Shown: positions 11,774 through 37,497 of the stretch, in pieces | How the letters are laid out: each line of letters starts with the position of its first letter | Numbering within the stretch: the stretch's first letter is position 1 | From: a virus | Virus record (IMG/VR): IMGVR_UViG_3300011253_001050 | Span: 1-44,250 of that record | Strand: one strand, 5' to 3' | Length of the DNA: 44,250 nucleotides | The notes under the pieces: model-generated | What the model was told of the DNA's origin: nothing | What the model saw: only the letters and a program-made list of their open reading frames with translations | Databases searched by the model: none | Position numbers and translations under genes: made by a program

Positions 11774-11775
11774 AC

Positions 11776-18571: not shown

Positions 18572-18588
18572 ATGCCCGGTAAAAACAG

Positions 18589-18978
18589 ATGGGAAGACCA
18601 AAGACAGCCACTAATATCCTAGATGCACGAGGTGCATTTAAGAAAAACCCGGATCGCGCTCGCCCGAAAGAACCGAAGCCAAAAGGTAAGTTCCGAAAAA
18701 CGCCACCGACGCACCTGACCGATTTACAGAAAACTTGCTGGAAAGAAATCGTTAAACAAGTCCCACCCGGTGTTCTAACAGAAGCCGACCAAGTGACGTT
18801 CGAGATAATCGTCATATTGTTCGCCGAGTTCAGATTGAAAGGCGCAAAGATGTCGGCGGCGCACTTAACGCGAATGACAGCCATGATGGGGCGCATCGGA
18901 CTAGATCCAGCGGGTCGCGCAGGGTTAGTTGTTGATACCGGTGACAAACCAAACAATACCGGCTTCGATGATTTCTGA
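18589..18978 (+). CDS. terS: terminase small subunit, P27 family
   Basis: The 129-aa protein begins MGRPKTATNILDARGAFKKN. It has the basic, proline-rich N-terminus and LTDLQKTCWKEIVKQVPPGVLT-type helical core of P27-like small terminases. These recognise the packaging site and deliver DNA to the large subunit. The stop overlaps the TerL start by one base (TGATG). The ribosome-binding site of ATG 18589 is weak. Confidence 0.85.
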   Translation: MGRPKTATNILDARGAFKKNPDRARPKEPKPKGKFRKTPPTHLTDLQKTCWKEIVKQVPPGVLTEADQVTFEIIVILFAEFRLKGAKMSAAHLTRMTAMMGRIGLDPAGRAGLVVDTGDKPNNTGFDDF

Positions 18979-20624: not shown

Positions 20625-20776
20625 AAGATGCACTAGAAGATGTCCTTTGTGGCTCCGGCGCGATAGCAGTTTCTTACGGCGCCTATTTAGTTTACGAGCC
20701 CGCTGGTTTTATTGTCGGTGGATTACTCCTTATCACCGGCGGATTCTTTGTCGCCAAAGCAAAGGGGCATCGCTAA
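20621..20776 (+). CDS. 51-aa small membrane protein between TerL and portal
   Basis: ATG 20621 overlaps the TerL stop (ATGA), and TAA 20774-20776 is directly followed by the portal ATG. The product starts MKDALEDVLCGSGAIAVSYG. It has one or two short Gly-rich hydrophobic segments (about 10-25 and 28-44) and a basic tail (AKAKGHR). The perfect fit between its neighbours supports a real gene. Function is unknown. It may be membrane-associated or a glycine-zipper component. Confidence 0.7.
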   Translation: MKDALEDVLCGSGAIAVSYGAYLVYEPAGFIVGGLLLITGGFFVAKAKGHR

Positions 20777-22045: not shown

Positions 22046-22853
22046 GCTACCCAAAGGCGCGCATCGTGGGCGCCGACGTTACTTTGCGAAAGTGAATCCA
22101 CGTTTTGAAGTGGAGGTTGCCGAGACAGGCGCGGACCTTTTGATTTACGACGAGATATCTCCGTTCGGTGTCAGTGCCACGCAGATACGCCAAGCGTTAG
22201 ACGAAATTGACGCACCGGATATTAATGTACGAATTAACTCGCCGGGTGGTGATGTGTTTGATGGTATTGCTATCCACAACGATTTACGAGCACACCCAGC
22301 AGACATACACGTACACGTCGTTGGTTTAGCCGCATCCGCAGCTTCATTAATCGCGATGGCCGGCGACACTATTACGATGGCCGACAACGCACATCTCATG
22401 ATTCATAACGCGTGGACATTAGCTGTTGGCGACCATAACGACTTACGTGAAATGGCGGATATATTACAAGGCATAGATACAACGCTCGCGCGAACGTATG
22501 CAAGTCGCACTGGCGTCGATGTCGATGATGTCACCGCAATGATGGACGCCGAAACGTGGCTCAGTGCTGATCAAGCAATAGAATTAGGCTTTGCCGAAGG
22601 CGTTGGCGAAAACGAAGATGTAAAAGCACTATTCGACTTAACAGTATTCAACCGAGTACCGAACTCGGTGAAACGACAAATTGAAGGTAGCTTGCGCGAT
22701 GCAGGTTACTCGAAATCGGAAGCCATCATCGCATGTGCGAAAGGTTTCCATGCGCTAGGCCGGAGTGAGTCCGGCAATCCATCCCGGAGTGAGTCTGTGG
22801 ATCAGGAAGTGCACGCTTCATTAGAAGCAGCAATCCAAAACTTCCGCGTTTAG
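22038..22853 (+). CDS. ClpP-like head maturation protease
   Basis: The 271-aa serine protease has a ClpP fold. INSPGGDVFDGIAI is the conserved beta/helix motif, Ser100 in GLAASAAS is the expected nucleophile, and His123 in LMIHN is the base. The C-terminus after about residue 235 is variable and contains a short near-duplicate (GRSESGNPSRSES). It cleaves the delta domain of the capsid protein during prohead maturation. It overlaps portal and precedes the capsid gene by 59 nt. Confidence 0.92.
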   Translation: MIELPKGAHRGRRRYFAKVNPRFEVEVAETGADLLIYDEISPFGVSATQIRQALDEIDAPDINVRINSPGGDVFDGIAIHNDLRAHPADIHVHVVGLAASAASLIAMAGDTITMADNAHLMIHNAWTLAVGDHNDLREMADILQGIDTTLARTYASRTGVDVDDVTAMMDAETWLSADQAIELGFAEGVGENEDVKALFDLTVFNRVPNSVKRQIEGSLRDAGYSKSEAIIACAKGFHALGRSESGNPSRSESVDQEVHASLEAAIQNFRV

Positions 22854-22912
22854 CGGAAATTCCCATAACTTACTTTTCCGGCCTATAGAAAGGCCGATAG
22901 AGGTGTATTGAA

Positions 22913-24217
22913 ATGAGTAAAGAATTACTAGCACTCGTGGAAGATCTGAACACGACCGTTGTCGAGTTCAAAGCGAAACACGAGCAAGAATTGAAGGAAA
23001 TCAAAGCGAAAGGTGTTGCCGACCCCTTACTTACCGAGCAGGTGAATAAGATCAATGACAACGTCATCGAACTGAGTGAAAGAATTGAAACTACCAAAGC
23101 CGAATTGAAACAGGTAGAAATTCAGGCTGCACGTCCAGCGTTTGGCGGCACCGGTGAAGCTGCCGAGAAAGAGCAAGCCTTAGCGAATCAGTTTTTTAGC
23201 GCTGTTCGCGGCGAGCCAGTCAACGCTAGTGAAGGTGAAATCGAGTCTGTACGAGAGTACCGCCCAGCGTTTCAAGGTTATCTGCGACGCGGTGATAAAG
23301 GTCTTGGCGAATTGCAAAATGCCTTGTCCGTTGGCTCTGATCCTGATGGCGGTTATTGGGTTATGCCTGACACAGGCGGCCGAATCGCGCAATTGGTTTA
23401 TGAAACATCCCCACTGCGAAGTGTAGCGGCGGTTCAGTCAATCGGTACTGATGCTTTGGAAGGCATCAACGACCTTGATGAAGCTGGCGCCGGTTGGGTT
23501 GGTGAGCAACAAACTCGAAGCGAAACGACTACACCACAAGTTGGTAAATGGCGTATTCCCGTTCACGAGCTGCACGCTTCTCCGAAAACGACTCAAAAGC
23601 TTCTCGACGATTCGATGGTTAACGTTGAGTCCTGGCTCGAAGGCAAAGTTGCGCGACGATTCGGTCGTTTAGAGAACGCTGCGTTCATCAATGGTGATGG
23701 CGTCGCTAAGCCTCGTGGCTTCCTAACTTATGCATCTGGTACCCCTTCTGCATCCGCTTGGGATGTTATGGAGCGGGTGAACACAGGTGTTAATGGTGGT
23801 TTCGCAGCCTCTCCGACTAGTGGTGACGTTTTCCACGATGTTATGGGTGCTTTGAAAGCGGAGTACTTGAATGGCTCCGTTTGGGTGATGAACCGTACGG
23901 TATTAGCTGCTGTTCGTAAGTTGAAAGACGGCGACAACAACTATCTGTGGGAGCGTTCCTTTGACGCGTCGCAGCCGTTCCAAATCCTTGGGCATCAAGT
24001 GATTCGTATGGAAGATATGCCCGCCCTCGGGACCGGTTCACTGTCTATTGCGTTTGGTAACTTCGGTGAAGGCTATCAAATCGTAGACCGTATCGGTATT
24101 CGAGTGTTGCGCGACCCGTTCACCTCAAAAGGTAACGTCGTTTTCTACACCACGAAGCGAACCGGTGGCGATGTCGTTAACTTCGAAGCTATCAAGCTTA
24201 TGAACTTTGCGGCCTAA
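22913..24217 (+). CDS. major capsid protein, HK97 fold
   Basis: The 434-aa protein starts with a charged coiled-coil scaffold (delta) domain over about residues 1-75 (LVEDLNTTVVEFKAKHEQEL). The mature capsid domain follows and ends with TTKRTGGDVVNFEAIKLMNF. Family knowledge says the delta region is removed by the upstream protease. The likely cut is somewhere near residues 85-110, but I cannot place it exactly. GAGGTG lies 9 nt before ATG 22913, a good site for a highly made protein. Confidence 0.95.
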   Translation: MSKELLALVEDLNTTVVEFKAKHEQELKEIKAKGVADPLLTEQVNKINDNVIELSERIETTKAELKQVEIQAARPAFGGTGEAAEKEQALANQFFSAVRGEPVNASEGEIESVREYRPAFQGYLRRGDKGLGELQNALSVGSDPDGGYWVMPDTGGRIAQLVYETSPLRSVAAVQSIGTDALEGINDLDEAGAGWVGEQQTRSETTTPQVGKWRIPVHELHASPKTTQKLLDDSMVNVESWLEGKVARRFGRLENAAFINGDGVAKPRGFLTYASGTPSASAWDVMERVNTGVNGGFAASPTSGDVFHDVMGALKAEYLNGSVWVMNRTVLAAVRKLKDGDNNYLWERSFDASQPFQILGHQVIRMEDMPALGTGSLSIAFGNFGEGYQIVDRIGIRVLRDPFTSKGNVVFYTTKRTGGDVVNFEAIKLMNFAA

Positions 24218-24271
24218 CTTTTTGCAGCTTATTAGCAAATAAATTGAACGCATAACTAGAGGATTACAAAG

Positions 24272-24685
24272 ATGCGAGATTTAACGAGTGGCCTGCAACT
24301 AGCAGGTGCGGAAGTAGTAACGGTATCGGATACCACCGCTGTGGTGTCTCCGATAGTCGATATGCAAGGTGCAGACGGCCTTGTTTTTCTAATTGGTGCG
24401 GGAACCCTTGCAGACGCCGACGCGACTTTTACCGTGTTGGTTGAAGAAGGCGATGTTTCTAACCTGTCGGACGCTGCTGCGGTTGCAGATGTAGACCTGA
24501 ATGGGACTGAAGCATTGGCAGGATTTCAATTCGATGACGATGATGAAGGCCGAAAGATTGGCTACGCCGGATCGAAGCGATACGTCCGTTGCACGGTAAC
24601 CCCAGTGGCTAATACTGGTAGTGCTCCGCTTGCCATCATCCCAGTGAAAGGAATGCTAACTAATCAACCAGGTAGCAACCCCTAA
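24272..24685 (+). CDS. putative head decoration/stabilisation protein
   Basis: The 137-aa, Ala/Asp/Val-rich beta protein (VVTVSDTTAVVSPIVDMQGA, TFTVLVEEGDVSNLSDAAAV) is encoded directly behind the capsid gene. It ends before a strong terminator, so capsid and this gene can be made in excess. That position and composition fit a capsid decoration protein. The family is not recognised with certainty. Confidence 0.55.
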   Translation: MRDLTSGLQLAGAEVVTVSDTTAVVSPIVDMQGADGLVFLIGAGTLADADATFTVLVEEGDVSNLSDAAAVADVDLNGTEALAGFQFDDDDEGRKIGYAGSKRYVRCTVTPVANTGSAPLAIIPVKGMLTNQPGSNP

Positions 24686-24742
24686 ATAGTCCGTAACCAA
24701 TACGTATAGATTCAGAAGGATCCTATACATAACAACGAGGAA

Positions 24743-24767
24743 GGGTGCAGTAATGCACCCTTTTTTT
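24743..24767 (+). terminator. intrinsic terminator after the capsid genes
   Basis: GGGTGCA (24743-24749), loop GTAA and TGCACCC (24754-24760) are followed by seven T (24761-24767). The perfect 7-bp stem is probably a partial terminator that reduces transcription of connector genes relative to capsid. The ATG at 24753-24755 lies in the loop and 3' arm. Confidence 0.85.
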
Positions 24768-24962
24768 ATTATGGTTTTACTTAAAGCAAATGAAGAATTC
24801 GTTGGCGCCCCGAATGGATTTGATACACGCAAGATCGAAAAAGGCGAAGTTTTTGAAGCTTCTGATGATTTTGGCTTGCTGGTGTTGGATGATGGTAGTT
24901 GCGAAGTAGCTGCCGACTCCGATGAAGTAGAAGAAGACGATTTCGACGACGAAGACGTCTAG
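24753..24962 (+). CDS. small acidic hypothetical head protein
   Basis: The product is 69 aa from ATG 24753, or 63 aa from ATG 24771. The first start has GAGGAAGG at good spacing but lies in the terminator hairpin. The second has no ribosome-binding site. The body (FVGAPNGFDTRKIEKGEVFE) looks like a small beta barrel and the tail is almost purely acidic (DSDEVEEDDFDDEDV). It lies 2 nt before the connector gene. It may be a head-completion accessory. Confidence 0.6.
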   Translation: MHPFFIMVLLKANEEFVGAPNGFDTRKIEKGEVFEASDDFGLLVLDDGSCEVAADSDEVEEDDFDDEDV

Positions 24963-24964
24963 AA

Positions 24965-25531
24965 ATGAGCTTAATAGTTGCAACACCGCCGGTCTTCGAG
25001 CCTATAGATATTGATTACGTAAAGTGTTGGACGCGTATTGACCAAGACGCGGACGATGTCGTTCTCAATAGCTTGATCCTTGCCGCACGAGAGTATGTAG
25101 AGAAATTCACGCGCCGTGCATTGATCACCCAAACGCTCGAAGAACGTTTTGATTGTTTTCCGGGAAACTGTTTCGAGCTTCGTCGATCACCCGTTCAAAG
25201 CGTCACCAGTATCGAATATTTCGATATTAATGACGTCGAGCAAACGGTATCAGCGACCACGGTGTACGAAACAGACTTAAATTCGGAACCGGCGCGTATT
25301 GCTCTGCGCGAGGGTGGCGTTTGGCCGACTGTAGATTCGCGTCTAGATCCGGTCAAAGTCACCTACGTTGCGGGGTACGCAACACCTGAAGAAGTGCCGG
25401 AATCAATCCGCCTAGCAATGGCTATGTTGGTCGATCATTGGTACGAGCATAGATCCCCGGTGACCGAATTAAAGTTAGCGCAAACACCTATCAGTGTTCG
25501 AGCGTTATTAGCCCAAAACCGTGTGTATTAA
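24965..25531 (+). CDS. head-tail connector, gp6-like
   Basis: The 188-aa protein begins with the family pattern of HK97 gp6-like connectors: IDIDYVKCWTRIDQDADDVV, then LILAAREYVEKFTRRALITQ. A beta-rich centre and a helical end (ESIRLAMAMLVDHWYEHR) follow. It forms the ring under the portal. It sits in the conserved order connector, stopper, gp10-like, terminator. Confidence 0.85.
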   Translation: MSLIVATPPVFEPIDIDYVKCWTRIDQDADDVVLNSLILAAREYVEKFTRRALITQTLEERFDCFPGNCFELRRSPVQSVTSIEYFDINDVEQTVSATTVYETDLNSEPARIALREGGVWPTVDSRLDPVKVTYVAGYATPEEVPESIRLAMAMLVDHWYEHRSPVTELKLAQTPISVRALLAQNRVY

Positions 25532-25533
25532 TC

Positions 25534-25851
25534 ATGGAATCGGGCAAATTAAATAAGCGGGTTGAAATACAACGCGCAACGAAAACCGATGACGCGTCCG
25601 GTACTCCTGTTGAAACCTGGGCGAAACTCGCTGACGTTTGGGCTCAACTAAAACCATTACGTGCTCGTGAGATCGTCCAGGAAGGACAAGTACAGGGCGA
25701 TTTAACGCATCAAATCCGTATTAGGTACTACCGGGGTTTAACTCGGAAGGACCGAATTAAATTTGGCACCCGAATTTTTAACTTGGTTGAAGTCATCAAT
25801 GTTGATGAACGCGGCCAGATGCACGAGTTACTTGCGAAGGAATCGGTCTAG
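25534..25851 (+). CDS. head closure / head-tail joining protein
   Basis: The 105-aa beta-barrel protein of the Phage_H_T_join (SPP1 gp16-like) family starts GKLNKRVEIQRATKTDDASG and contains WAQLKPLRAREIVQEGQ and KFGTRIFNLVEVINVDERGQ. It acts as the stopper below the connector. Its last base is shared with the start of the next gene. Confidence 0.85.
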   Translation: MESGKLNKRVEIQRATKTDDASGTPVETWAKLADVWAQLKPLRAREIVQEGQVQGDLTHQIRIRYYRGLTRKDRIKFGTRIFNLVEVINVDERGQMHELLAKESV

Positions 25852-26276
25852 TGGCCAACGGTATCGACATTCGATTACTCGGTGACAAACAGCTCCAACG
25901 TAAATTAACGAATCTCGAACTAGCTGTTCAAAAGAAAATTGTACGTAAGGCATTACGCGCGGGCGCTAAGCCGATGCTCGCGACCGCGAAAGCAAAAGTG
26001 AACGTTGATACTGGCGCTCTAAAAGCCAATATAAAAATCAAAGCATTAAAACGTAGCCGTCGCGGGAGTTTTGGCGTTCAGGTTACGACGCCACCGCGAG
26101 AAAAATTAGGCATTGCGGCCGATGACCCTGGTTACTACCCGGCAATTCTTGAATACGGTTCCGCGACAAACAGAGCGCAACCTTTCCTAAGACCAGCGTT
26201 CGACGACAACCGAAGTAGATCTCTAGATGTTGTGAAAGAAACCATTGCTAGCGGCGTAAGAGGGGCGGTGAGATGA
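25851..26276 (+). CDS. HK97 gp10-like tail completion protein
   Basis: The 141-aa protein uses GTG 25851. KKIVRKALRAGAKPMLATAK and VDTGALKANIKIKA, followed by YYPAILEYGSATNRAQPFLRP, are the signature of the HK97-gp10/minor tail family that works at the head-tail junction. The stop overlaps the next start (ATGA). Confidence 0.85.
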   Translation: MANGIDIRLLGDKQLQRKLTNLELAVQKKIVRKALRAGAKPMLATAKAKVNVDTGALKANIKIKALKRSRRGSFGVQVTTPPREKLGIAADDPGYYPAILEYGSATNRAQPFLRPAFDDNRSRSLDVVKETIASGVRGAVR

Positions 26277-26683
26277 GTTTACTAGTGGAAGGTGTTATCG
26301 CGCATCTAAGAGCACAAAGTTCTATTACAGACCTTACGGGGACACGTATTCGAGCATCGCAAGCCGGAGAAGACGACGATTTACCGTACGTGACATTAAT
26401 CATGGTAAGTGACCCGTCTGTCTATCACATGGGCGGTGCATCGGGCATCGCACAAGCACGTATTCAAATTGACTGTATTGGTTCGCTTCCGCTTGAAGCG
26501 ACGAACGTTGCGGAAGCAATCCGTTCGTCGATATCAGGCTTTCGCGGAACGATGGGCACTGTCGCTGTTAGACGGTGCCACAAGGCGGACCGAGCTGGTC
26601 CGGATTTTTTCCAAGCGCAAGATGGTAAGGACAAAGGTAAGTATCGAATGCGTATGGATTTCATGATCGACTACAACGAATAG
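26273..26683 (+). CDS. tail terminator/completion protein, DUF3168 type
   Basis: The 136-aa protein contains LRAQSSITDLTGTRIRASQA, then LPYVTLIMVSDPSVYHMGGA, and a beta-rich end. This is the pattern of DUF3168 proteins that cap the tail tube and join it to the head. Order in the cassette agrees. Confidence 0.8.
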   Translation: MSLLVEGVIAHLRAQSSITDLTGTRIRASQAGEDDDLPYVTLIMVSDPSVYHMGGASGIAQARIQIDCIGSLPLEATNVAEAIRSSISGFRGTMGTVAVRRCHKADRAGPDFFQAQDGKDKGKYRMRMDFMIDYNE

Positions 26684-26695
26684 GAGGCTGATTAA

Positions 26696-27103
26696 ATGGC
26701 AGCTACCGACGTAGGTACAGGAACAGCTATTACGTTCCAAAGCGGTCTCTTAGGTGAGATCACAAGTTTGTCTGTTAACGGACAAGAAATTCCGGTTATT
26801 GATGTACCGAATATGGCGGACACAGGTGTGTTTAGCCGAATCTTCGGGCGATTGGCTGCTCCGCCTACGCTTGAAGTTGGTGTCAATTTAGACCCGGACG
26901 ACAACGTAGCCACGGTGTTAGCGGCGGCTGCGGAATCGGTAACCATTACCTTCCCGACACCGGCGGGCGGTACCTCCGGGGCTACTTGGGTATTCACAGG
27001 TAAAGCGACAGGGTTTGAAGCAGATGTCCCCGTCGAAAATGTGATGACAGGAACGTTCACGATCACCGCTACCACGGCAATCACTTACACCGCGTCAACC
27101 TAA
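26696..27103 (+). CDS. major tail tube protein
   Basis: The 135-aa product starts MAATDVGTGTAITFQSGLLG and consists of beta strands (ITSLSVNGQEIPVIDVPNMA, VTITFPTPAGG). This matches lambda gpV/TTP-type tube subunits that polymerise around the tape measure. AGGAGG lies in front of ATG 26696. Directly after it come a small gene and the frameshifting chaperones, the usual order. Confidence 0.8.
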   Translation: MAATDVGTGTAITFQSGLLGEITSLSVNGQEIPVIDVPNMADTGVFSRIFGRLAAPPTLEVGVNLDPDDNVATVLAAAAESVTITFPTPAGGTSGATWVFTGKATGFEADVPVENVMTGTFTITATTAITYTAST

Positions 27104-27354
27104 TGATCGTTGATGCGCAAGGTAATCCGTTAACCGTTACATCGGCCCCTTCACCGGGGCCGGTTAACTTAGTTGGAGAGTGGGAGGGCATCACCATGGA
27201 AGTCAAATTAATAGAACCTTGGAACGGCTATGACACTGATACAGAAATGACAGTGCGGCCGAACCAAGGACGCTGGTTACTCCGCACAGAACGTGCGATT
27301 GAAATAGAGGATAACAACAATGCCGAAGACGAAACGCAACATACAGAAAATTGA
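27103..27354 (+). CDS. small hypothetical tail protein
   Basis: The 83-aa protein starts at ATG 27103, overlapping the tube stop (TAATG), and overlaps the chaperone gene by 35 nt. The centre is beta-prone (GITMEVKLIEPWNGYDTD, RWLLRTERAIEIED) and the end is acidic and Asn-rich. The position between tube and chaperone suggests a tail assembly accessory. No family is recognised. Confidence 0.6.
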   Translation: MIVDAQGNPLTVTSAPSPGPVNLVGEWEGITMEVKLIEPWNGYDTDTEMTVRPNQGRWLLRTERAIEIEDNNNAEDETQHTEN

Positions 27355-27646
27355 AATCGAAGGCGTAGATGATATCTACATCCGAGAACTAAATGCTAAG
27401 CAGTTCGCCGAGGTCGCGGACTTACTAAACGGACTCGACAACACAGATTCAACGCAAGCCGCGAACGGTATGGCTTTCGTGTGTTTCCGATCCGTGTGCG
27501 ATGAACAAGGCACTCCAATTTATAAAAACACTGAGGAAGTATTAGAAGAAACGTTCAGCTTCATCGAAAAGTGCACTGAGGCCGCACTAGAAATAAACGG
27601 TCTTAACGCCGATGAACAGCTGGCAGCAGACGTAAAAAACTCCTAA
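27320..27646 (+). CDS. tail assembly chaperone, short form (G-like)
   Basis: The 108-aa helical and acidic protein (IYIRELNAKQFAEVADLLNG) ends ADVKNS just after a slippery A AAA AAC heptamer. It corresponds to lambda gpG, which coats the tape measure during tail assembly. Most ribosomes should end at TAA 27644-27646. A minority shift to make the long form. Confidence 0.85.
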   Translation: MPKTKRNIQKIEIEGVDDIYIRELNAKQFAEVADLLNGLDNTDSTQAANGMAFVCFRSVCDEQGTPIYKNTEEVLEETFSFIEKCTEAALEINGLNADEQLAADVKNS

Positions 27647-27984
27647 ACCGTCCGGTACTTTTCTTCGCATATAAGTTGGGCTTTCACTTAGGTGAGCCCA
27701 ACCCCGAAGAAATGTTAGAAACCATGACCGCGCAAACACTGCGACGGTGGCGAGCTTTTGACGAAATCACCCCGTTCGGTGATGAACGCGCGGATCTAAG
27801 AATGGGTATTTTGGGATCACATCTCGCAAATATTCACATACAAAAAGGTCGGCGATATAAACCGACCGATCTAATCCCCAACTTCCGACGACCACAACAA
27901 CAATCTGTATCAGAGATGGAACAGGTGATGAAACAGTGGGCGGCTGAAACTAACAGGTTCTTTGAAGAAAATGGCAGTAATTGA
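27320..27984 (+). CDS. tail assembly chaperone, -1 frameshift fusion (GT-like)
   Basis: A -1 slip at A AAA AAC (27634-27640) joins 107 codons of the short form to a second frame. That frame is open from 27640 and continues through KLGFHLGEPNPEEMLETM to TGA 27982-27984, giving about 221 aa. The T-part has no good start of its own (only a TTG at 27676). This is exactly the lambda G/GT arrangement, in which the fusion bridges tape measure and tube protein. Confidence 0.85.
27634..27640 (+). other. programmed -1 ribosomal frameshift site
   Basis: The heptamer A AAA AAC obeys X XXY YYZ in the frame of the upstream gene, and the stop follows two codons later (AAC TCC TAA). The -1 frame is open for 115 codons. 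I did not find an obvious strong downstream pseudoknot by eye. Confidence 0.85.
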
Positions 27985-29338
27985 AACATTATCAGTTGCA
28001 TTGACTGCGCGTACCCAACGTTTTACGTCGGGTATCAAAAGAGCAGGTGGTCAGCTATCCCGGTTTTCTAAACGCGTCGCTAAGATCACTGCCAAGGTTG
28101 CGGCTTTTGGTCTAGGTCTCACGGGTTTAGCCGGTGGCGGATTGCTTTTGTTCGCAAATGCACAGCGGGATGTTATTGACCAGACCGCTAAGTTTGCTGA
28201 TGTGGTTGGGCTAAGTACCGAAGCATTAACCGGGTACCAACTCGCGGCAAAGATAACCGGTGTAGAGCAAAGCCAACTAAACACGGGCTTACAACGATTT
28301 CAGAAATCGATAGCCGACGCACAGTCTGGTTTATCTACGGCTAAACGAGTATTCCAAAACCTAGGGCTCGATCCAGCGCGTTTATCGCTTTTGTCTATGG
28401 ACGAAGCGTTCAAGACAGTCGCAGATCGATTACCTACGATTCAAAACCAATTCCAACGAACCCAAACCGTACTTGACCTATTCGGCCGGTCTGGTCTTGC
28501 CTTAACGAAACTCCTAGAAACTGGTCGGGATGGTATTAATCGATTTCAAGCCGAAGCGGACAAACTCGGTTTGGCGTTTAGTCGTGTTGACGCTGCCAAA
28601 GTAGAAGCGGCCAACGATGCCGTTGCGCGTTTACAAGGATTGTTTACCGGCATATCTCGAACTTTAATCATCGAAGTATCGCCATTCATAGAAGCATTCG
28701 CACAACGATTAGTTGATGCCGGCATAACGGGCGAGGGTGTCGGGCAACGTGTTCTACAAGTATTCACACGAGTCGCCAGTACATTGGCTCAAGTCGTAGA
28801 CATCGTGCATCTTCTGTCGGCCGCGTGGAATGGGTTTCGCTCTGTTGTCGAAGGCGTCACCGGGGTTGTACTAACTGCGCTCGGTGCTATCGCCGAAGGT
28901 ATTACGAATTTATTAAACAAGATCCCGGGTATTGATATCCAGGGTGAAAACTTCGCATTAACGCTTGGCGCCGACCTAATCAAAGCCGCCGAGAAGTCTT
29001 TCGTTAAATCACAAATCAGTTTCGGGAAGTTCAGCGAACAAGCCGCTAGCAACACGGTGAAGGATTTCTTCTCCGGTGTCGCAAGACGAGCCGATACGGC
29101 TGCTCAAAATGCGATTAGTCCGGCACAAAATGCAATTGCAGAACAGCAATCGACGAGTGCTAAAAGCAACGATTTTGGTGCGCGGGGTATCGACCTAGGC
29201 AATGTATTCGTCGGGGCGTTGAATACCTCTAAACGGCAGGAACAACGCGTTACGGACCCAACCGTTGCCCGGAAACTAGACAGAACGAATCAACTACTCG
29301 CCAATATGGTGGGTGGTGGGGGAGCGGTAGCAGTATGA
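27971..29338 (+). CDS. tape measure protein
   Basis: The 455-aa product from ATG 27971 overlaps the chaperone end. It contains the tape-measure signature ALTARTQRFTSGIKRAGGQL, a Gly/Leu hydrophobic stretch (about 47-65), then GLSTEALTGYQLAAKITGVE and long helices. A second hydrophobic region lies at about 265-310. At roughly 1.5 A per residue the tail would be near 65-70 nm, short for a siphovirus. That estimate is inference. It lacks a visible lysozyme or peptidase domain. Confidence 0.85.
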   Translation: MAVIETLSVALTARTQRFTSGIKRAGGQLSRFSKRVAKITAKVAAFGLGLTGLAGGGLLLFANAQRDVIDQTAKFADVVGLSTEALTGYQLAAKITGVEQSQLNTGLQRFQKSIADAQSGLSTAKRVFQNLGLDPARLSLLSMDEAFKTVADRLPTIQNQFQRTQTVLDLFGRSGLALTKLLETGRDGINRFQAEADKLGLAFSRVDAAKVEAANDAVARLQGLFTGISRTLIIEVSPFIEAFAQRLVDAGITGEGVGQRVLQVFTRVASTLAQVVDIVHLLSAAWNGFRSVVEGVTGVVLTALGAIAEGITNLLNKIPGIDIQGENFALTLGADLIKAAEKSFVKSQISFGKFSEQAASNTVKDFFSGVARRADTAAQNAISPAQNAIAEQQSTSAKSNDFGARGIDLGNVFVGALNTSKRQEQRVTDPTVARKLDRTNQLLANMVGGGGAVAV

Positions 29339-30159
29339 CGACACGCACTGAGAATTTCGTAGAGGGGACATCGGTAACCTTAGATGCGCAGGGTTCAACC
29401 GCTGTGCGTGTTTTCATACTGCAAGACGTTCCAGGCAACACCGATTCAAAGTTATGGAACGCAACCCAAGATTCACGCATCCCGCCCTACGGTGACCCAC
29501 ACCCGGTAATACCGGGACTACAGGTAACACAGGTGGTAGCAACGCCGCTTAGCGATAGGGACAACGCTCACGTTCGCGTAGAAGTTACTTATTCGGTACC
29601 GAACATTAGCGACGACGTACCGTTTGACCAAGATACGACACCTGAAGAAAAAGGGGTGATGTCTTTAAGTGCCGCACTCGTTACCGAAGAAACAAACTTT
29701 GATCGCAACGGACGACCGCTATTAGTTCAGTACACCGGCACTTTAGTTGATTCAGAAGGCAACCAAGTGGAAGTCGATAACGACGAACAAATAGCGACGT
29801 TGGAAATACCCCGTGTAATGCCGGTGGTTAGTTTTACGCGGCGAGAAACGGAATCGCCTATCGATGCCGTCCAAAGCCTCGTGGGGACAATCAACAGCCG
29901 GTCTATTGGTGGTTTTGCAGAGAAGACAATCTTACTAACGAGGATCGACGCTTCTTCGCAAGATGGCGGACTAACTTTCGACGTTACTTACGAATTCCAA
30001 CATAACGAACGGGGGTGGACATCGACTGTCGCTTGGATTGATCCCGAGACTGATCGACCACCAACGGATGTTACCAGCACCAACGGTCTCGCCGACTACG
30101 AGCTTTACAGGGAAGCAGATCACCACTTCTTACGACTACCGTTCAACATCACACGATGA
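29335..30159 (+). CDS. tail tip protein of unknown family (1)
   Basis: The 274-aa beta-rich protein (VRVEVTYSVPNISDDVPFDQ, then TILLTRIDASSQDGGLTFDV) follows tape measure with an ATGA overlap, where a distal tail or baseplate hub protein is expected. Two alternating halves, each ending in FDVTYEFQ- or VEVTYSVP-like strands, suggest a duplicated beta domain. I do not recognise the family. Confidence 0.65.
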   Translation: MTTRTENFVEGTSVTLDAQGSTAVRVFILQDVPGNTDSKLWNATQDSRIPPYGDPHPVIPGLQVTQVVATPLSDRDNAHVRVEVTYSVPNISDDVPFDQDTTPEEKGVMSLSAALVTEETNFDRNGRPLLVQYTGTLVDSEGNQVEVDNDEQIATLEIPRVMPVVSFTRRETESPIDAVQSLVGTINSRSIGGFAEKTILLTRIDASSQDGGLTFDVTYEFQHNERGWTSTVAWIDPETDRPPTDVTSTNGLADYELYREADHHFLRLPFNITR

Positions 30160-30707
30160 CACTTAAATCCACTGATAAACCTTCGATTGTAAAACCGAAG
30201 GAATGGTCCGTCGGGGAGCCGTTAACCGCTCGCCGGCTTAATGAACCGGTGAAAGTAATACGCCAACTAATTCGAGGCGTCGAACCTGCGAGACAACTGA
30301 AGTCTTCATCTAGGTCAACATCGGTAGATGTCCGTCAATTTAGAATCAAATCAATCGATTTAGATTTCATGATCTGTCGTGAATGGAATGGCACCGCTGA
30401 AGGTGATGCAGATTTTATTATCGCCAAACCCCCGCTATTACGGGCGTCGGTTACAGAGAGGACGTTCGGCGTACTTACGGCAACGTATTCGGCAGTTAAC
30501 AGTACGGGTACTCAACGCACTGCGACTGTTGGCGGTGATAGTGAAACGCAAGTCGTTATCCCGTCTTACGAGGTAGATGATGTTGTATACGCCATTAGAA
30601 ACGTCAAAGGCGGCACAGGGGCGACACGAGAAGAACTTGGAAACGACATAGCAGTTGACTGGTTAGAACTAAACCAAGGTCGCGCTTGGGCTACGAAGGC
30701 GTCCTAA
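30156..30707 (+). CDS. tail tip protein of unknown family (2)
   Basis: The 183-aa product begins with a Lys/Pro/Arg-rich extended segment (VKPKEWSVGEPLTARRLNEP) and ends in a beta-rich domain (FRIKSIDLDFMICREWNGTA ... VVIPSYEVDDVVYAIR). The ATGA overlap with the gene before it and the immediate start of the next gene place it in the tail tip transcript. Function is unknown. Confidence 0.65.
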   Translation: MTLKSTDKPSIVKPKEWSVGEPLTARRLNEPVKVIRQLIRGVEPARQLKSSSRSTSVDVRQFRIKSIDLDFMICREWNGTAEGDADFIIAKPPLLRASVTERTFGVLTATYSAVNSTGTQRTATVGGDSETQVVIPSYEVDDVVYAIRNVKGGTGATREELGNDIAVDWLELNQGRAWATKAS

Positions 30708-31982
30708 ATGGGAAGCGATTTCGACAGCTTCAATGCAACCGGGTTTGATGGATTCATCGACAGTGGTTTCGATGCTCGCGGTGTGGGTGGGGTTCAACCG
30801 AAAGGCGACTTGATTTTGGTCGGTACGTTCTCGTCTTTTGATGGGAATACGGTCGATAGTATCTGTACTTATGATTTCACAACCGGAGACATCGACACTA
30901 CGATAGGCGACCAGATAGGTAGCTTTATCGGGGGTTCCCGACGGGTACTTTTTCATGAAGGAAGCGGCGGGCTCTATTTTGTTTCTGGAACTCGTTTGTA
31001 TCGTTATTCCTCTGACGGTTTCGGGGATAACATTAATATTGAAGATTGGTTTGAAGGGTGTGTGTGGGGCGACAAGATCGTCGTCATTGGTGATGACGTT
31101 AGCGGAAACCAAATCGGTGTATACGATATCAACGCTGATTCGTTTAGCACCTCTGAAATCCCCGACCCAGTAGCGACGGGTATTTACGACGACGTGCATT
31201 TATTGCAGGTAAAACCGATCACTATTAACGGTACCGAAATGTTGATGTTCTTCGGATATCAACAACAAAACTTCAACGGTATAAGAACCGCCTACTGTGA
31301 AATATGGAACGGCTCTTCTTACCTATATACGCTCGAAGATGACTACCCGGTGTCGGGATTTATGAGCACGACATCCACCTGGGACAGCGATACTGTCGTG
31401 AATGGTGAAGATGTATGGTTTACCCACCGCATGACCCGGACAAGTACCGCTACCGGGACAAATGATCATGACTACATCGTACGATGGCGACCCCGCTCTA
31501 GTAATTCACAAGGATGGTCGCGACCGGCTGCCGCGTTTCAGTTAGGCCTGGTCAATCCGAACATACCGAATCCGCCGGGTCTGTACATTAACGAATTAAA
31601 CGGTAGTTTCTACTACACCGGGGCACAAACCTGGGAAGCTAACGACGGTAGCAACATTTTCAGTTTGCGTACGGTAAGACTCGACCAAGGTTTTAGCGCC
31701 AGCGGTGGTACGTCGATCACCGATACCGGAGGGTACGACACTGGTGTTGATTTCATGGAAGTCTTACAGGGTGATGCCGCAGGTAATAACTATTTGTTCG
31801 CGTCGCGTGACCCGGCCGCAAGTGCGGAGATAACCGGAGGTGGATCAAACATCGACGGCGGTGCAACTAAACGACTCATATTTTTTAACGGTTCTGTTTG
31901 GGATGAATTTCCAGCTCAACCAGATAACGGCGAGATTCTCGCCATGCTCCCTTTGAACGCGGACGACATTGTCGATCCGTAA
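30708..31982 (+). CDS. beta-propeller-like tail protein
   Basis: The 424-aa protein has repeated aromatic/glycine blade-like segments (KGDLILVGTFSSFDGNTVDS, then GLYFVSGTRLYRYSSDGFGD, KIVVIGDDVSGNQIGVYDIN, NGSFYYTGAQTWEANDGSNI). They suggest a kelch or beta-propeller fold of about 5-7 blades. It is encoded in the tail-tip operon, so it is probably exposed on the virion and may bind the host surface. The fold call is by eye. Confidence 0.6.
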   Translation: MGSDFDSFNATGFDGFIDSGFDARGVGGVQPKGDLILVGTFSSFDGNTVDSICTYDFTTGDIDTTIGDQIGSFIGGSRRVLFHEGSGGLYFVSGTRLYRYSSDGFGDNINIEDWFEGCVWGDKIVVIGDDVSGNQIGVYDINADSFSTSEIPDPVATGIYDDVHLLQVKPITINGTEMLMFFGYQQQNFNGIRTAYCEIWNGSSYLYTLEDDYPVSGFMSTTSTWDSDTVVNGEDVWFTHRMTRTSTATGTNDHDYIVRWRPRSSNSQGWSRPAAAFQLGLVNPNIPNPPGLYINELNGSFYYTGAQTWEANDGSNIFSLRTVRLDQGFSASGGTSITDTGGYDTGVDFMEVLQGDAAGNNYLFASRDPAASAEITGGGSNIDGGATKRLIFFNGSVWDEFPAQPDNGEILAMLPLNADDIVDP

Positions 31983-32001
31983 TGATCTGAGGTTACATTA
32001 A

Positions 32002-33252
32002 ATGGCTACAAAATATTTCACCGGTGAAGCAGTTGCGGTTGCGCAGGTCGCTACAGCGTCAATCGATACGGTAGATGGAACGCCCGCCGATAATACCTTT
32101 ACAGTAACAATAGGTGGGGTCGCTATCTCTGTAGTTGGAGATACCAACGTAAACACGACGGCCACGAATTTGCGGGCCGCATTAAACGCTTCAACGCATC
32201 CTTATTTCGCCGCCATCACGTGGAGTGGTGCGAGTGCTGACATCGTCGGTACAGCGGATGTCGCCGGAGTGCCCTTCGTTGCTACTCTAACTGAAACGGG
32301 TGCCGGTTCGGGTACCGTTACAGACTTTGCCGCCACGACCGATGCTGACGGGCCAAACTTTTGGAGTTCCGCCGCCAATTGGTCAACCGGGTCCGTACCA
32401 GTAAGCACTGACGATGTAATAATCGAAGGAACATCAACGAACATCGTTTATGGGCTTGCTCAGAGTGCCGTCACTTTAGCTTCTTTAACGATACGCAAAA
32501 CATTCACCGGGAAGATTGGATTGAACCTCCGAGCTTTCGCCACTTCGGCCGACGCCGATACAGTTGACGCTACGGTGAATGACTACCGAGATGACTATTT
32601 AGATATCGGATATGACAATGCCGACATCGGTCAACACGTCGGCCCCGGGCAACCAGCAGGATCGAGTCGTATCAAACTGGATAACGCTAAGGCTGGCGCC
32701 TCAACGACAGTGGTTCACGATACCGCTTCCAGTGCATCGGAAACCGGTTTCCCTGCTGTACGTTTGATAGCAGCTAACGCGAACGCGGATGTCGTAGTTC
32801 GGGGAGCGCGTGCCGGGGTTGGTATCGCATTAGATGAACCCGGTGAAACAACCACGATAGGCGACCTTGATGTATCGGGTGGTCTTGTGTTCGTCGGTGA
32901 GGGTGTAACAGTCACCAACGTTCGTATGAACGGCGGAACAGTTGCAGTGCAAGCCGCTGCAACGATAACGCTTGTCGAAATTGATGATGGTACGTTAACG
33001 ACCGAAGGCAACTATACGATCACTACTTTGACCGTGAACGGTGGCCAAGTATTTTGTAATCACACGTCGGGCGGCAATGCGATCACAACGCTGAATATGA
33101 ACGGAGGTAGAATCGACGGTCGCGGTAACTTAGAGCCACGGACATGGGCTACGGTGAATCCGGACGAAGGAACTATCTTAGTTGATGACGGTGTCGTAAC
33201 TATTACGACGTTCGATGCACCGGCGGGGTCGAAAACTATTTCGGTAAGCTAA
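32002..33252 (+). CDS. beta-helix-like tail protein
   Basis: In this 416-aa protein the N-terminal region (VDGTPADNTFTVTIGGVAIS) resembles small carbohydrate-binding or Ig-like domains. From about residue 200 on, short repeated strands with turns (TVTNVRMNGGTVAVQAAATI, TLTVNGGQVFCNHTSGG, TLNMNGGRIDGRGNLE) look like a right-handed beta helix. Last gene of the rightward late block. No clear terminator follows. It is probably a spike or tip component. Confidence 0.6.
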   Translation: MATKYFTGEAVAVAQVATASIDTVDGTPADNTFTVTIGGVAISVVGDTNVNTTATNLRAALNASTHPYFAAITWSGASADIVGTADVAGVPFVATLTETGAGSGTVTDFAATTDADGPNFWSSAANWSTGSVPVSTDDVIIEGTSTNIVYGLAQSAVTLASLTIRKTFTGKIGLNLRAFATSADADTVDATVNDYRDDYLDIGYDNADIGQHVGPGQPAGSSRIKLDNAKAGASTTVVHDTASSASETGFPAVRLIAANANADVVVRGARAGVGIALDEPGETTTIGDLDVSGGLVFVGEGVTVTNVRMNGGTVAVQAAATITLVEIDDGTLTTEGNYTITTLTVNGGQVFCNHTSGGNAITTLNMNGGRIDGRGNLEPRTWATVNPDEGTILVDDGVVTITTFDAPAGSKTISVS

Positions 33253-33640: not shown

Positions 33641-33712
33641 TTAAGTCGGTGACCAAACGATACGAATCCCGGTGTCACGAGATCCACAATCGCTACACTT
33701 CAATCGTGGTGC
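33641..33712 (-). pseudogene. remnant of a zinc-ribbon gene
   Basis: Read leftward, this stretch encodes APRLKCSDCGSRDTGIRIVW followed by SPT and stop. It is nearly identical to the C-terminus of the intact zinc-ribbon protein at 34318-34536. The 65 bp 33648-33712 differ from 34331-34395 at only four positions. No start codon or N-terminal CxxC half is present upstream in this frame. It is a truncated duplicate. Confidence 0.75.
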
Positions 33713-33764: not shown

Positions 33765-34328
33765 CTAGCCAGTACGGGATAGCCCTTCGCTAACCGCAGC
33801 AAGCGCCCCAACGAAAACTATGACCGCAACCATAAAATTAATGCTCAATTGGTGTGAGCGCTTAGCTGGCATTTCGGATAAGAATACGGCGAAAATCTTG
33901 TAGACAAATAACCCTAACGTGATAAAAACTAAACTTTTTGTTTCAGGTGTGTAGTAAACGGTTAACCAAACACACAACAGCATGAAGTAGAAAGCCGGTA
34001 CGTTGAAATCATAATCTGTCTTGTGATTTAAAATTATTCCTCTTAAATGCGAAAACGATACTAGTGAGAGTAGCACTATCGCGTCGACATCCAGTTCGCT
34101 TAACTCTCGCTTAACCGAGAGCGACAAGAAGTTAGCTATGGGTTTTGTGAAATTCCGGTAGAAATCGATGGTATTCGAAAGAAAACCTTTTAACGCGAAG
34201 ACATTATCAGCCAACGAAGCTAATGATAAAACGGAAGACGCAAACGCGACCGCAAGTAAAACCTTGGTTAGCGGTTCCAGCGCCGACCATACACGTTTTA
34301 GCTCGTCGTAATCGTCCTTAACTGACAT
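33765..34328 (-). CDS. five-TM membrane protein of the accessory block
   Basis: The product is 187 aa from ATG 34328, which overlaps the zinc-ribbon stop by 11 nt. A start further upstream would lie inside that gene. Hydrophobic segments lie at about 21-42, 82-100, 110-127, 131-151 and 161-180, with a charged N-terminus (SVKDDYDELKRVW) and a cytosolic or periplasmic loop at about 43-80. No transporter signature is visible. Coupling to a zinc-ribbon gene and position by the attachment site suggest a prophage-expressed membrane factor such as superinfection exclusion, which is inference. Confidence 0.7.
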   Translation of the reverse strand: MSVKDDYDELKRVWSALEPLTKVLLAVAFASSVLSLASLADNVFALKGFLSNTIDFYRNFTKPIANFLSLSVKRELSELDVDAIVLLSLVSFSHLRGIILNHKTDYDFNVPAFYFMLLCVWLTVYYTPETKSLVFITLGLFVYKIFAVFLSEMPAKRSHQLSINFMVAVIVFVGALAAVSEGLSRTG

Positions 34329-34536
34329 CTGGTGACCAAACGATACGAATCCCGGTGTCCCGAGATCCACAATCGTTACACTTCAACCGAGGTGCGAGTG
34401 TCGATATCTCAATATCGCCAAACTTTTTCATAATACTTTCGCACGGTAGTTTCTTCATCACTCCACAGCTATTACACACGCCACAGATATCGTGATTGCT
34501 GGTTAAGTCTGAAAGATGACTTAAACTCGTCTGCAC
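34318..34536 (-). CDS. small zinc-ribbon protein
   Basis: The 72-aa protein has two CxxC knuckles, C21-x2-C24 (CNSCGVMKKL) and C53-x2-C56 (LKCNDCGSRD), about 30 residues apart. This fits one zinc ribbon. C18 and C32 are extra. Small ribbons with this GDIEISTLAPRLKC-type middle occur widely as single-domain proteins in proteobacteria, from memory. Function is unknown. GTG 34536 is the longest start and has no clear ribosome-binding site. The stop overlaps the membrane gene's start region. Confidence 0.7.
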   Translation of the reverse strand: MQTSLSHLSDLTSNHDICGVCNSCGVMKKLPCESIMKKFGDIEISTLAPRLKCNDCGSRDTGIRIVWSPDVS

Positions 34537-34548: not shown

Positions 34549-34662
34549 CTAGAATATAGATTTTATCTGATGCTGCAAGAAAGGTATTCCAAGCCACCAA
34601 ATTGCCGCACATGTGACAAGTACGATGGCGGAATCAAGTAGTATCTTTTGTCTTCGCGTCAA
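34549..34662 (-). CDS. 37-aa single-TM peptide, translationally coupled
   Basis: TTG 34662 overlaps the preceding stop in TTGA, and the frame ends at TAG 34551-34549. The product begins LTRRQKILLDSAIVLVTCAA and continues IWWLGIPFLQ. It has a basic start, one membrane span and a short tail. The overlap with the neighbouring small membrane gene and the N-in topology are consistent with a real gene, but a TTG start and 37 residues are weak evidence. Confidence 0.4.
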   Translation of the reverse strand: MTRRQKILLDSAIVLVTCAAIWWLGIPFLQHQIKSIF

Positions 34663-34871
34663 ACTTTACGTCTCGCCATCGATGAACCCATAAAGCCAAG
34701 TGATGTTACTGCGACGGCAGTGAACCAGCAAAACGCAAACGCTGCTGCGTATATCCACACCTTATCGACGCTGTACGTATTGAAGAGAGTGAGACCTACA
34801 ACGAATGCGACCATCGCCCCGATTGAATTTAAAGTGAAGTATCTTGCTCGATATGACTGTTCGTAATCCAT
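34659..34871 (-). CDS. small two-TM membrane protein
   Basis: The 70-aa product starts at ATG 34871 behind GGAGAACGG. Two hydrophobic segments at about 15-33 and 38-60 (GAMVAFVVGLTLFNTY, IYAAAFAFCWFTAVAVT) are separated by a short loop. The end is basic (ARRKV). It belongs to the leftward accessory block between the prepilin-like and zinc-ribbon genes. No family is recognised. Confidence 0.65.
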   Translation of the reverse strand: MDYEQSYRARYFTLNSIGAMVAFVVGLTLFNTYSVDKVWIYAAAFAFCWFTAVAVTSLGFMGSSMARRKV

Positions 34872-34891: not shown

Positions 34892-35887
34892 CTAAGGGCC
34901 GTCAATATCTACGCCATTCGCACCTAACGCGCCGACGATATCTTCTGTGACATTGAAATCAATGCCATACGGATTTGCGGCCGATATCGTGTAGATGGGA
35001 GATGCAGCCGGGTCGTAGTTAATGTTTCCACCGAAAGGGCTACTAAGTATCGTGATTGCCACTGGCGGAGTGTAAGGGAATCCAGCCCTGATCGCGTCAG
35101 AATAGACTTGGTTTTTCATCGTACGGATATTGTCGTTAAGTATTTGCATTTTTGAGGGAAGCGCACCCGAGACAACTAATGGTGCCGTTAGAGCTTCTTC
35201 GTTCAACACGACAACTACATCGTCAAAGGGCGTCGTTTCACTGTCAGAGAAATTCGCAGCGATTAAATCGCCATCCGCATCTATATTTTCTAATTCGTTT
35301 ATTGCTGTCGCCACAGGGTTAGGTAGAGCGTTACCGTCCCGAGTCCGCCCTCCTGAACGATTAGCGCCGTGAGAGAAAAATGCGACAACACCATCGGTGA
35401 TCAAATTTACTGCGCCATTGCCTAATGTAATGTACGAAGTAACATCCCCCGGTGCCCAACTAACAGTTGTCCATGAATTCGGCATGGTCGCTTCTTCAAT
35501 TACAAGGTACGTGAATTGCATCGCCCAACCGTCGGTAACTTCACCTAGCCCAACACCTAACGTTTGAAACGGTAAAGCACCCCGCAAGATACCTGTGGCA
35601 CCTAGTTCTAGGTTCACGCAATCTTCGGCCCCGTAATTGACGTTGGTGCGGGGGAGCGTTGGGTCGGCTGGGCAGGGGAGTTCGCCATTCTGTGCCAAGT
35701 AGTTGCGTAATAGGTCAGCGACGAAATCTGTTCTCAAGCCTGTTTCGGCAATACCAGAGTTGACACGCTGAACTCGATACATATTGATCGCGCCGACCGC
35801 TAAAGTACTGACGATGGCTAAAACGATAGCCGTCTCGATTAACGTGAAGCCTTTCTGTAATGTGTTCATACGTTTCGCTCGATTCAT
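34892..35887 (-). CDS. type IV prepilin-like protein
   Basis: The 331-aa product has a textbook class III signal, K-G13|FTLIETAIVLAIVSTLA, with Glu at mature position +5 and a hydrophobic helix. This is how type IV pilins and type II secretion pseudopilins are recognised by prepilin peptidase. The large C-terminal domain has a possible disulfide pair near LPCPADP and EDCVN and is otherwise beta-rich. Length exceeds that of ordinary major pilins and fits a minor pilin-like protein. ATG 35869 has GAGCGA upstream and may be the true start. A pilin-like gene is very unusual in a phage. Confidence 0.8.
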   Translation of the reverse strand: MNRAKRMNTLQKGFTLIETAIVLAIVSTLAVGAINMYRVQRVNSGIAETGLRTDFVADLLRNYLAQNGELPCPADPTLPRTNVNYGAEDCVNLELGATGILRGALPFQTLGVGLGEVTDGWAMQFTYLVIEEATMPNSWTTVSWAPGDVTSYITLGNGAVNLITDGVVAFFSHGANRSGGRTRDGNALPNPVATAINELENIDADGDLIAANFSDSETTPFDDVVVVLNEEALTAPLVVSGALPSKMQILNDNIRTMKNQVYSDAIRAGFPYTPPVAITILSSPFGGNINYDPAASPIYTISAANPYGIDFNVTEDIVGALGANGVDIDGP

Positions 35888-36071: not shown

Positions 36072-36116
36072 CTTCGAACCAGGTGGTCGGAGGTTCGAAT
36101 CCTTCTGGGCGCGCCA
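36072..36116 (+). other. attP: attP core: 3' part of a tRNA gene (Arg-like)
   Basis: The segment reads as anticodon loop CTTCGAA, stem arm CCAGG, variable TGGTC, T-arm GGAGG-TTCGAAT-CCTTC, acceptor strand TGGGCGC, discriminator G and CCA (36114-36116). The 5' half of a tRNA is missing: upstream bases do not pair with the acceptor or the CCAGG arm. Acceptor ends of the GGGCGC-G-CCA form are typical of arginine tRNAs in gammaproteobacteria. It lies 20 bp from the integrase stop codon, the usual attP position, so integration would restore the host tRNA 3' end. Confidence 0.75.
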
Positions 36117-36136: not shown

Positions 36137-37279
36137 TTAGTTAGCCGCAATTGCCGTTGCGGCTTTTCTTTTTACCATATGCAGCACGGGAGATTCACGG
36201 GTTTGAGATCCCAAAATGCGGTTACTCGCCTCGTATAAATCTATCAATTCCGGTACTGAATAATGATCAGTAACGTCGCCGCTACGGTGACCCAACAACA
36301 CTTGTCTTGTGTCTTTCGGTACACCCGCTGCACGTAGTCTTCGACCAAACGTGTGCTTCAAGTTATGCGGTCCCTTCAAGTAATCACCACTCGTTGGTAA
36401 CCCCGCATCCTTCCACGCTCGTTTCCAAGCGCTGTTATGCATCATCGGTAACGTTCTACCTTTGTAAGTGAACACGTGCGTGGGGTGTTTTCCGCGCATT
36501 GATTCCACTACATTGCCGGCAGTGTCGTTACAAACAATGATTCGATCATGACGATTCTTCACTTGCGAACCCCGAGCTTCGGTAAGCGTTACGCCTGACG
36601 GTATGAGAAATACCACAGGATCAAAACCCGGAATATTGATTTCCCATTCCCATCGCAACCCGCAAACCTCTGCCTCACGTGACCCCGAATTAACTTTATA
36701 CAAAGCCATTCGAGCTAAATGCACCGGTAGTTCTTTTAGCAATTCCGCCTGTTCCGACCAATCTAACGGGTACGGCGATTTGCTATCGGTTACCGGTAGC
36801 ATCTCGATGTATGGAGCCTGAGCCAGCCAAGTTAAGCCGGTATCGTCTCGCCACATCCGAGCGCACAAGTTCAAAACTCTACGAACGACACCCAACGCTA
36901 TGTTGATGGTTTTCGCTCGTCGTCCTTGCTTCTGTCTATCAGCAATAAACGGTCGCAATGTTTCCATGTGAACCTGATCCAAAGGTAGACTACCTATATA
37001 CGGATCAAGTTGTTTCAGGTGCCGTGCGATTTCATCGATTCGTGTCCGGTGTAAATTTTCCTGTATGAATTTAGTAGCAGCTTGCCGCCAAACTCTCACC
37101 GGTCGTGAACCGAATAAAACTATATCGGCGATTTCACGCGTTCGTTTTGCTAAGTACCTTTCGGCGTCTTCGAGGTTGCTAAGTCCAGTGCTTTCGCAAA
37201 GTCGTCTTCCGTGGATGACCTTGTCGATTTGCCAGACGTTGTACCTTTTGGACAAGCCGGGTGTTTTCTTTCTACCCAT
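36137..37279 (-). CDS. int: tyrosine integrase
   Basis: The 380-aa product from ATG 37279 is chosen for AGGAGG 9 nt upstream. The catalytic set is R201 (SGSREAEVCGLRW), likely K241, H305-N-L-K308-H309, H331 (LLGHRSGD) and nucleophile Y340 (DHYSVPEL). The second arginine of the classic HxLRH box is lysine here. A similar HDLKHTFGRRL box recurs in a group of phage integrases, from memory, so it is probably active. An N-terminal arm-binding and core-binding region spans about 1-165. It sits directly beside the tRNA-derived attP and overlaps the excisionase-like gene. Confidence 0.92.
   Translation of the reverse strand: MGRKKTPGLSKRYNVWQIDKVIHGRRLCESTGLSNLEDAERYLAKRTREIADIVLFGSRPVRVWRQAATKFIQENLHRTRIDEIARHLKQLDPYIGSLPLDQVHMETLRPFIADRQKQGRRAKTINIALGVVRRVLNLCARMWRDDTGLTWLAQAPYIEMLPVTDSKSPYPLDWSEQAELLKELPVHLARMALYKVNSGSREAEVCGLRWEWEINIPGFDPVVFLIPSGVTLTEARGSQVKNRHDRIIVCNDTAGNVVESMRGKHPTHVFTYKGRTLPMMHNSAWKRAWKDAGLPTSGDYLKGPHNLKHTFGRRLRAAGVPKDTRQVLLGHRSGDVTDHYSVPELIDLYEASNRILGSQTRESPVLHMVKRKAATAIAAN
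36144..36173 (+). terminator. rightward terminator inside the integrase 3' end
   Basis: GCCGCAA (36144-36150), loop TTGCCG and TTGCGGC (36157-36163) are followed by TTTTCTTTTT (36164-36173). It is oriented with the tRNA segment, 28 bp after its CCA, and lies within the last codons of the leftward integrase gene. After integration it would end transcription of the host tRNA. Confidence 0.75.
36184..36209. repeat. right copy of the 26-bp repeat, in the integrase 3' end
   Basis: GCACGGGAGATTCACGGGTT plus six bases lie 67 bp right of the attachment core, while the left copy ends 88 bp before it. On the integrase strand it encodes SQTRESPVL. Confidence 0.6.
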
Positions 37280-37497
37280 GTAGTGCGTCCTCCTTCTTCG
37301 GCCGGACGCCCATTGCACTGCTTATACTCATCTAGTGCGGCGTCAATTTCAAGCCGATCAAATGCAATGCCCTGTTTGCCAATAGGAATTACCGTAATTT
37401 TGGGACGGATGGTGTCGTTGAATAGCGTTCGAGCCATCCCGCAATAGCCGTGTGCGTCTCTCGCTCGAATGAAGCGCGGATTAAGCTGCATCGCCAT
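37150..37497 (-). CDS. xis: excisionase-like DNA-binding protein
   Basis: The 115-aa product has an N-terminal part (about 1-58) with RARDAHGYCGMARTLFNDTI, then a strand-turn (VIPIGKQGIAFDRLEIDAAL) and a helix. This resembles the winged-helix pattern of AlpA/Xis-type proteins. The basic C-terminus (about 60-115) overlaps the integrase gene by 130 nt. Position just upstream of int in the same transcript fits a recombination directionality factor. The family call rests on pattern. Confidence 0.55.
   Translation of the reverse strand: MAMQLNPRFIRARDAHGYCGMARTLFNDTIRPKITVIPIGKQGIAFDRLEIDAALDEYKQCNGRPAEEGGRTTWVERKHPACPKGTTSGKSTRSSTEDDFAKALDLATSKTPKGT

Follow-up and report, generated by a model that had tools for sequence, protein, structure and literature searches.

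A predicted MSHA-family type IV prepilin encoded beside the attachment site of a temperate phage

The window analyzed here, that is, the whole 44,250-nucleotide stretch of viral DNA comprising positions 1 to 44,250 of IMG/VR record IMGVR_UViG_3300011253_001050, belongs to a phage that, judging by its gene content, is a temperate phage of the HK97 type; its attachment site is gammaproteobacterial. A minus-strand block of cargo genes lies between the late genes and the phage attachment site (attP), convergent with the tail genes, and includes a gene for a predicted type IV prepilin. The relevant features are as follows.

3104-3754, minus strand: CI-type repressor (phrog_8 / phrog_2328), a marker of temperate phages
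3889-4230, plus strand: CII-like regulator (phrog_725)
18978-33252, plus strand: late-gene block, which also holds further ORFs of the tail region; convergent with the cargo block
18978-20624, plus strand: large terminase subunit (TerL), late genes
20777-22045, plus strand: portal protein, late genes
22913-24217, plus strand: major capsid protein, late genes
27962-29338, plus strand: tape measure protein, late genes
33765-34370, minus strand: hydrophobic ORF, at most 201 aa, the final gene of the cargo block; no PHROG match
34318-34536, minus strand: zinc-ribbon-like ORF of 72 aa (CxxC...CxxC), recognized from the sequence
34659-34871, minus strand: 70-aa protein with two hydrophobic segments, beginning 20 nt past the prepilin stop; weak match to phrog_23647, a moron membrane-protein family (E 0.0084)
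34892-35887, minus strand: predicted prepilin, 331 aa; class III signal G13/FTLIE, hydrophobic helix 16-67, two cysteines (72 and 90), lobe 1 at about 70-245 and lobe 2 at 246-323
34892-35869, minus strand: alternative extent of the prepilin coding sequence, 325 aa; internal ATG, leader MNTLQKG, GAG purine motif upstream
36072-36116, plus strand: attP core of 45 bp, with the same sequence as the 3' half of tRNA-Arg(TCG)
36137-37318, minus strand: tyrosine integrase (phrog_1, E 2e-31)

The DNA polymerase gene is, like the integrase gene, on the minus strand. The two ends of the window (1-524 joined to 44250) fall within one ORF for an SSB-like protein with the acidic tail EEEDDDI, and there is no terminal repeat; because the contig ends meet inside this ORF, the window appears to be a circularly permuted, probably complete genome. 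Over 18.4 kb (positions 8978-27369), the window matches a second viral record, L002, at 99.93% identity; L002 stops short of the prepilin and the rest of the cargo. Comparison with this record also brought out a tail-fibre-like ORF (11776-14709, 977 aa) with strong internal repeats, the segments within 12220-14107 being 70-78% self-similar.

That the prepilin gene is located next to attP, as originally predicted, was borne out: the attP core lies between the prepilin gene and the integrase gene, 184 bp from the former, and matches (45/45 bp) the half of tRNA-Arg(TCG) from the anticodon loop to the CCA end in two gammaproteobacterial MAGs; its T-loop motif has a single exact copy in the window. 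From the orientation of these elements, we infer that, once integrated, the prophage would have its integrase beside the reconstituted tRNA gene and its prepilin at the opposite end, adjoining attR. One MAG, OFTM106, contains two copies of the 45-bp core (L074 and L075) whose 5' side is not tRNA sequence, resembling attR ends of other elements integrated at the tRNA-Arg site.

Within the cargo block, the gene for the 70-aa protein probably forms an operon with the prepilin gene, as its second member, and the 201-aa hydrophobic ORF, by its composition, probably encodes a membrane protein; apart from the weak match of the 70-aa protein, the three ORFs 3' of the prepilin gene gave no informative PHROG matches. 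The 201-aa ORF is flanked by a 65-bp direct repeat (33648-33712 and 34331-34395, 94% identical) corresponding to the zinc-ribbon ORF's C-terminal half, which suggests either a duplicated, partly decayed zinc-ribbon gene or insertion of a cassette. The block appears to be accessory: no N_methyl match was found in 20 records whose terminases are related (many of these records being partial), and in one relative (G005) the tail genes are followed by the integrase, with no prepilin. In its location and its absence from related phages (as far as their often partial contigs show), the prepilin gene looks like a moron, an accessory gene at the late/early boundary or at the att site.

The prepilin ORF is intact. 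The N-terminus of its product reads MNRAKRMNTLQKG up to the cleavage site and FTLIETAIVLAIVSTLAVGA past it, which comprises a complete signal: a short basic leader, the cleavage-site glycine (Gly-1), Phe+1, Glu+5 and the hydrophobic helix. Pfam N_methyl (25.7 bits, cut-off 21.2) and NCBIfam TIGR02532 (25.7 bits, cut-off 16.3) both score above their cut-offs, so that the original prediction of a full-length prepilin with a clear signal holds and the protein, by its class III signal (N_methyl), classifies as a type IV prepilin. Translation may actually start at the internal ATG at 35869, because the resulting seven-residue leader is typical of type IVa prepilins and is preceded by the purine motif. 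The codon usage of the gene is typical of the carrier phage. There was no clear consensus sigma-70 promoter for the gene, a promoter and terminator scan performing no better on the sequence than on shuffles.

AlphaFold2 modeling with the family alignment (mean pLDDT 82, pTM 0.74) yields a long, high-confidence N-terminal helix (16-67), followed by a mixed globular part, a second helix (246-268) and a C-terminal lobe rich in strands. A Foldseek search of this model against PDB and BFVD produced no confident match; the prepilin assignment therefore rests on sequence, with no structural confirmation of a pilin fold in the globular part.

Relatives of the protein surfaced only through whole-genome search and an alignment. 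One genome has the attB core with a single mismatch; of 369 genomes searched from its class, 70 had a match at E <= 1e-5, the best of these matches being chromosomal prepilins that align over residues ~7-257; the similarity is far beyond chance, with E-values down to 2e-32 over the same residues in a single-genome search. The closest-homologue search proposed with the original prediction thus led to chromosomal prepilins of MSHA (mannose-sensitive haemagglutinin) operons, with about 30% identity to the nearest ones, and to one phage homologue (29% identity) discussed below. The phage protein aligns with the chromosomal prepilins over its full length; it shares the second, "PWG" lobe with their long, MSHA-operon form and retains Gly13, Glu18, the LPCP cysteine and the motifs G-LP--LG, DGW--F-Y, SHG, EN-D and FDD; once the signal was removed, the alignment (A2) varied too much to be used for scanning. 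In the phylogenetic tree, it nests within the long, two-lobed chromosomal subclade (support 100/98). The end branches of this prepilin and of its phage homologue are 1.85 and 1.78 changes per site, respectively; the median is 0.63. For a clade that unites the two phage prepilins, the test gives neither support nor rejection (p-AU 0.25), which is compatible with one shared phage origin or with two captures.

We examined 20 neighbourhoods of chromosomal family members for genes encoding a secretin, an MshE/PilB-type ATPase, a PilC/GspF platform protein, and PilM/N-like and PilO-like proteins: all 20 contain at least one MSHA-type marker and 18 contain at least two. At one locus (L129), the secretin is MshL, scoring above the curated cut-off, and the ATPase contains an MshEN domain with a c-di-GMP motif. 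These neighbourhoods tie the prepilin family to MSHA-like pili. Because the family sits in operons of this type, the target postulated originally, a host pilus or secretion machine, can now be specified further. The chromosomal members have MshL, MshE and MshG neighbours; the phage gene is flanked instead by attP and the integrase gene and by tail genes. By sequence, then, the phage protein is a member of the long MSHA-operon prepilin family that is not part of an MSHA operon.

The window is not a unique case: phage-borne prepilins recur in uncultured phages. An alignment search of viral contigs identified the same prepilin family in phage contig G393 (IMGVR_UViG_3300047477_000152), identical in two records. 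There, as in the window, the prepilin is located at the end of the late genes, ahead of the early genes; unlike in the window, the virion genes are unrelated to those of our phage, and the 282-aa prepilin, which shares 29% identity with the one in the window, is co-directional with the late genes. The largest protein of the G393 late operon is a relative of the large structural protein of Pseudomonas phage KPP25, and the prepilin gene follows 18 nt downstream; next come another prepilin, of the MSHA type, and the early block, which encodes DNA ligase, an integrase and a DNA polymerase. The two tandem prepilins of this contig (also L127; 9992-10840 and 11025-11600) belong to two families, both of which are also found in host MSHA operons. 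Contig L192 encodes, in tandem, a PilA-like prepilin (4538-4951), which matches phrog_27437 almost from end to end, and one of the MSHA type (about 5986-6620), along with a terminase and a head-tail adaptor. Further MSHA-type prepilins are encoded on the large viral contigs L165 (6441-7097), L193 (5983-6663) and L194 (5998-6657), where the accompanying genes include those for DnaB, thymidylate synthase, portal or tail fibre; L165 and L193, like L192, are marked as phage by clear replication or packaging genes; for L194 there is a tail-fibre match.

Other searches were less productive. Used alone as the query, the window prepilin had no match in the viral contig and genome contig sets (viral_contigs and genome_contigs) or in INPHARED. 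Among named phages, such prepilins are rare: with the window and G393 prepilins, the family consensus and two other phage prepilins as queries, that collection yielded a single likely true match. The record comes from a Salmonella genome project, has a prepilin annotation and could represent a large mobile element or contamination. Plasmid matches were ordinary prepilins, mostly aligned over the first ~70 residues. The GFTLxExA motif is present in contigs L149 and L155, and many other matches to this pattern in viral contigs were false, being internal to large proteins or located in short or unlikely frames; contig L195 has no recognizable prepilin ORF. Our search of the literature, which was not exhaustive, turned up no description of type IV prepilins encoded by phages.

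Because the complete prepilin gene matches a kind found in host pilus operons, the phage, to judge from sequence comparison, probably alters the pili of its lysogens. The reading that we favor, with middling confidence, is lysogenic conversion in which the phage prepilin, processed by the host, joins the MSHA-like pilus as a variant minor subunit and alters binding. Under this scenario, the lysogen would make the prepilin together with the small membrane protein; the host prepilin peptidase (PilD) would cleave and methylate it, the N-terminal helix would anchor it in the inner membrane, and the host MshE/MshG/MshL machine would build it into the pilus. The modified pilus would bind differently, including to other phages, to the advantage of the prophage. 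Against this reading, PilD and the MSHA-like machine are ascribed to the host by extension from genomes that have the same attB or are of the same class, the scans gave neither a clear promoter nor a confident structural match, and the branch is very long. The role as a subunit is favored by the intact Gly-1, Glu+5, helix, cysteine pair and second lobe, the MSHA neighbourhoods of the family and the accessory position of the gene, and also by the temperate modules (CI, CII, Int and attP), the recurrence in G393 and the phage-typical codon usage. More tentatively still, unrelated lineages of tailed phages might repeatedly take up MSHA-operon prepilins as mimics that retune or mask the pilus receptor, thus controlling superinfection through subunit substitution rather than through inhibition of the motor.

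The strongest rival, which we consider rather unlikely, is a dominant-negative or competing prepilin that, after processing by PilD, enters the platform and caps or poisons the filament, so that the pilus is lost or shortened and superinfection is excluded. The published phage effects on type IV pili that we found work through blocked assembly proteins or lowered pilin expression: Tip and Aqs1 bind the assembly ATPase PilB, and PfsE binds the platform protein PilC (PMC8764522, PMC11436027). Furthermore, the neighbouring gene for a small membrane protein is of a type common among exclusion proteins, and the very long branch of the phage prepilin would also fit a protein that no longer assembles normally. 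Nevertheless, the conservation of Glu+5 and of both lobes, along with the cysteine pair, as expected of an assembly-competent subunit, leans towards the assembling form, and there is no evidence of pilus-dependent phages preying on this host.

The alternative that the gene is a passenger, a host prepilin captured via recombination or aberrant excision and without a selected role, appears improbable. The family is a host family, present in 70 of the 369 class-level genomes, and the gene adjoins attP; capture by imprecise excision had been proposed along with the original prediction. However, the attP is intact, the ORF is uninterrupted with codon usage matching that of the phage, the nearest relatives are only ~30% identical, scanning the genome collection by peptide yielded no confirmed relative, and the same family recurs in the unrelated phage G393. 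A near-identical chromosomal copy at the same tRNA locus, the observation that would have pointed to simple capture or chimeric assembly, was not found among 84,980 species genomes (one per species); in four attB-bearing genomes, the prepilin matches lie on contigs other than those with the attB copies, with no copy at the tRNA site. Given that there is no close copy among the species genomes or at the tRNA site, recent capture through faulty excision is unlikely.

It is less probable still that the protein is a pseudopilin serving a type II secretion system rather than a pilus. Such systems share parts with pilus systems, and the family shows weak N-terminal likeness to the GspG, GspH and PilV models, but the GspG and GspH scores are all far below the cut-offs (for the phage protein, GspH scores 14.7 bits against a cut-off of 80, and GspG is absent from the listed matches), and the examined homologues adjoin MshL and MshE-type genes. 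Finally, it is very unlikely that the contig is a chimera or includes host DNA: the prepilin gene is on one contig only, the near-identical L002 lacking the cargo, but a single attP core separates prepilin and integrase, codon usage and GC content are phage-like, the contig ends join within one ORF, the phage DNA is present in that second record, and the prepilin family recurs independently in G393.

The phage prepilin, as a putative variant pilus subunit, can be compared with several known systems. With the MSHA-type prepilins of Gammaproteobacteria (the unnamed "LPCP ... DGWG ... FDD" family) it has in common the signal, helix, cysteine pair and both lobes; it differs in being only ~30% identical, in its branch of about three times the median length, and in being carried by a phage that has neither a pilus operon around it nor a further pilus gene. 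The PHROG families phrog_3433 ("pilin", moron) and phrog_27437 (unnamed) are likewise phage-encoded and have the N-methyl signal, although the match of the window prepilin to them is confined to the signal region (residues ~9-38); together with the prepilins on other viral contigs, these families contradict, as a general statement, the premise of the original prediction that phages encode inhibitors and not pilins. Tip, Aqs1 and PfsE are, like this prepilin, products of phage genes directed at the host type IV pilus machine, which is the expected target here, but they are not described as prepilins (PMC8764522). A filament subunit supplied by the phage, should this reading be correct, would be a different route to changing adhesion, surface sensing, DNA uptake and access for other phages, and one that is testable, given that the protein family, the type of host operon and the position of insertion are defined.
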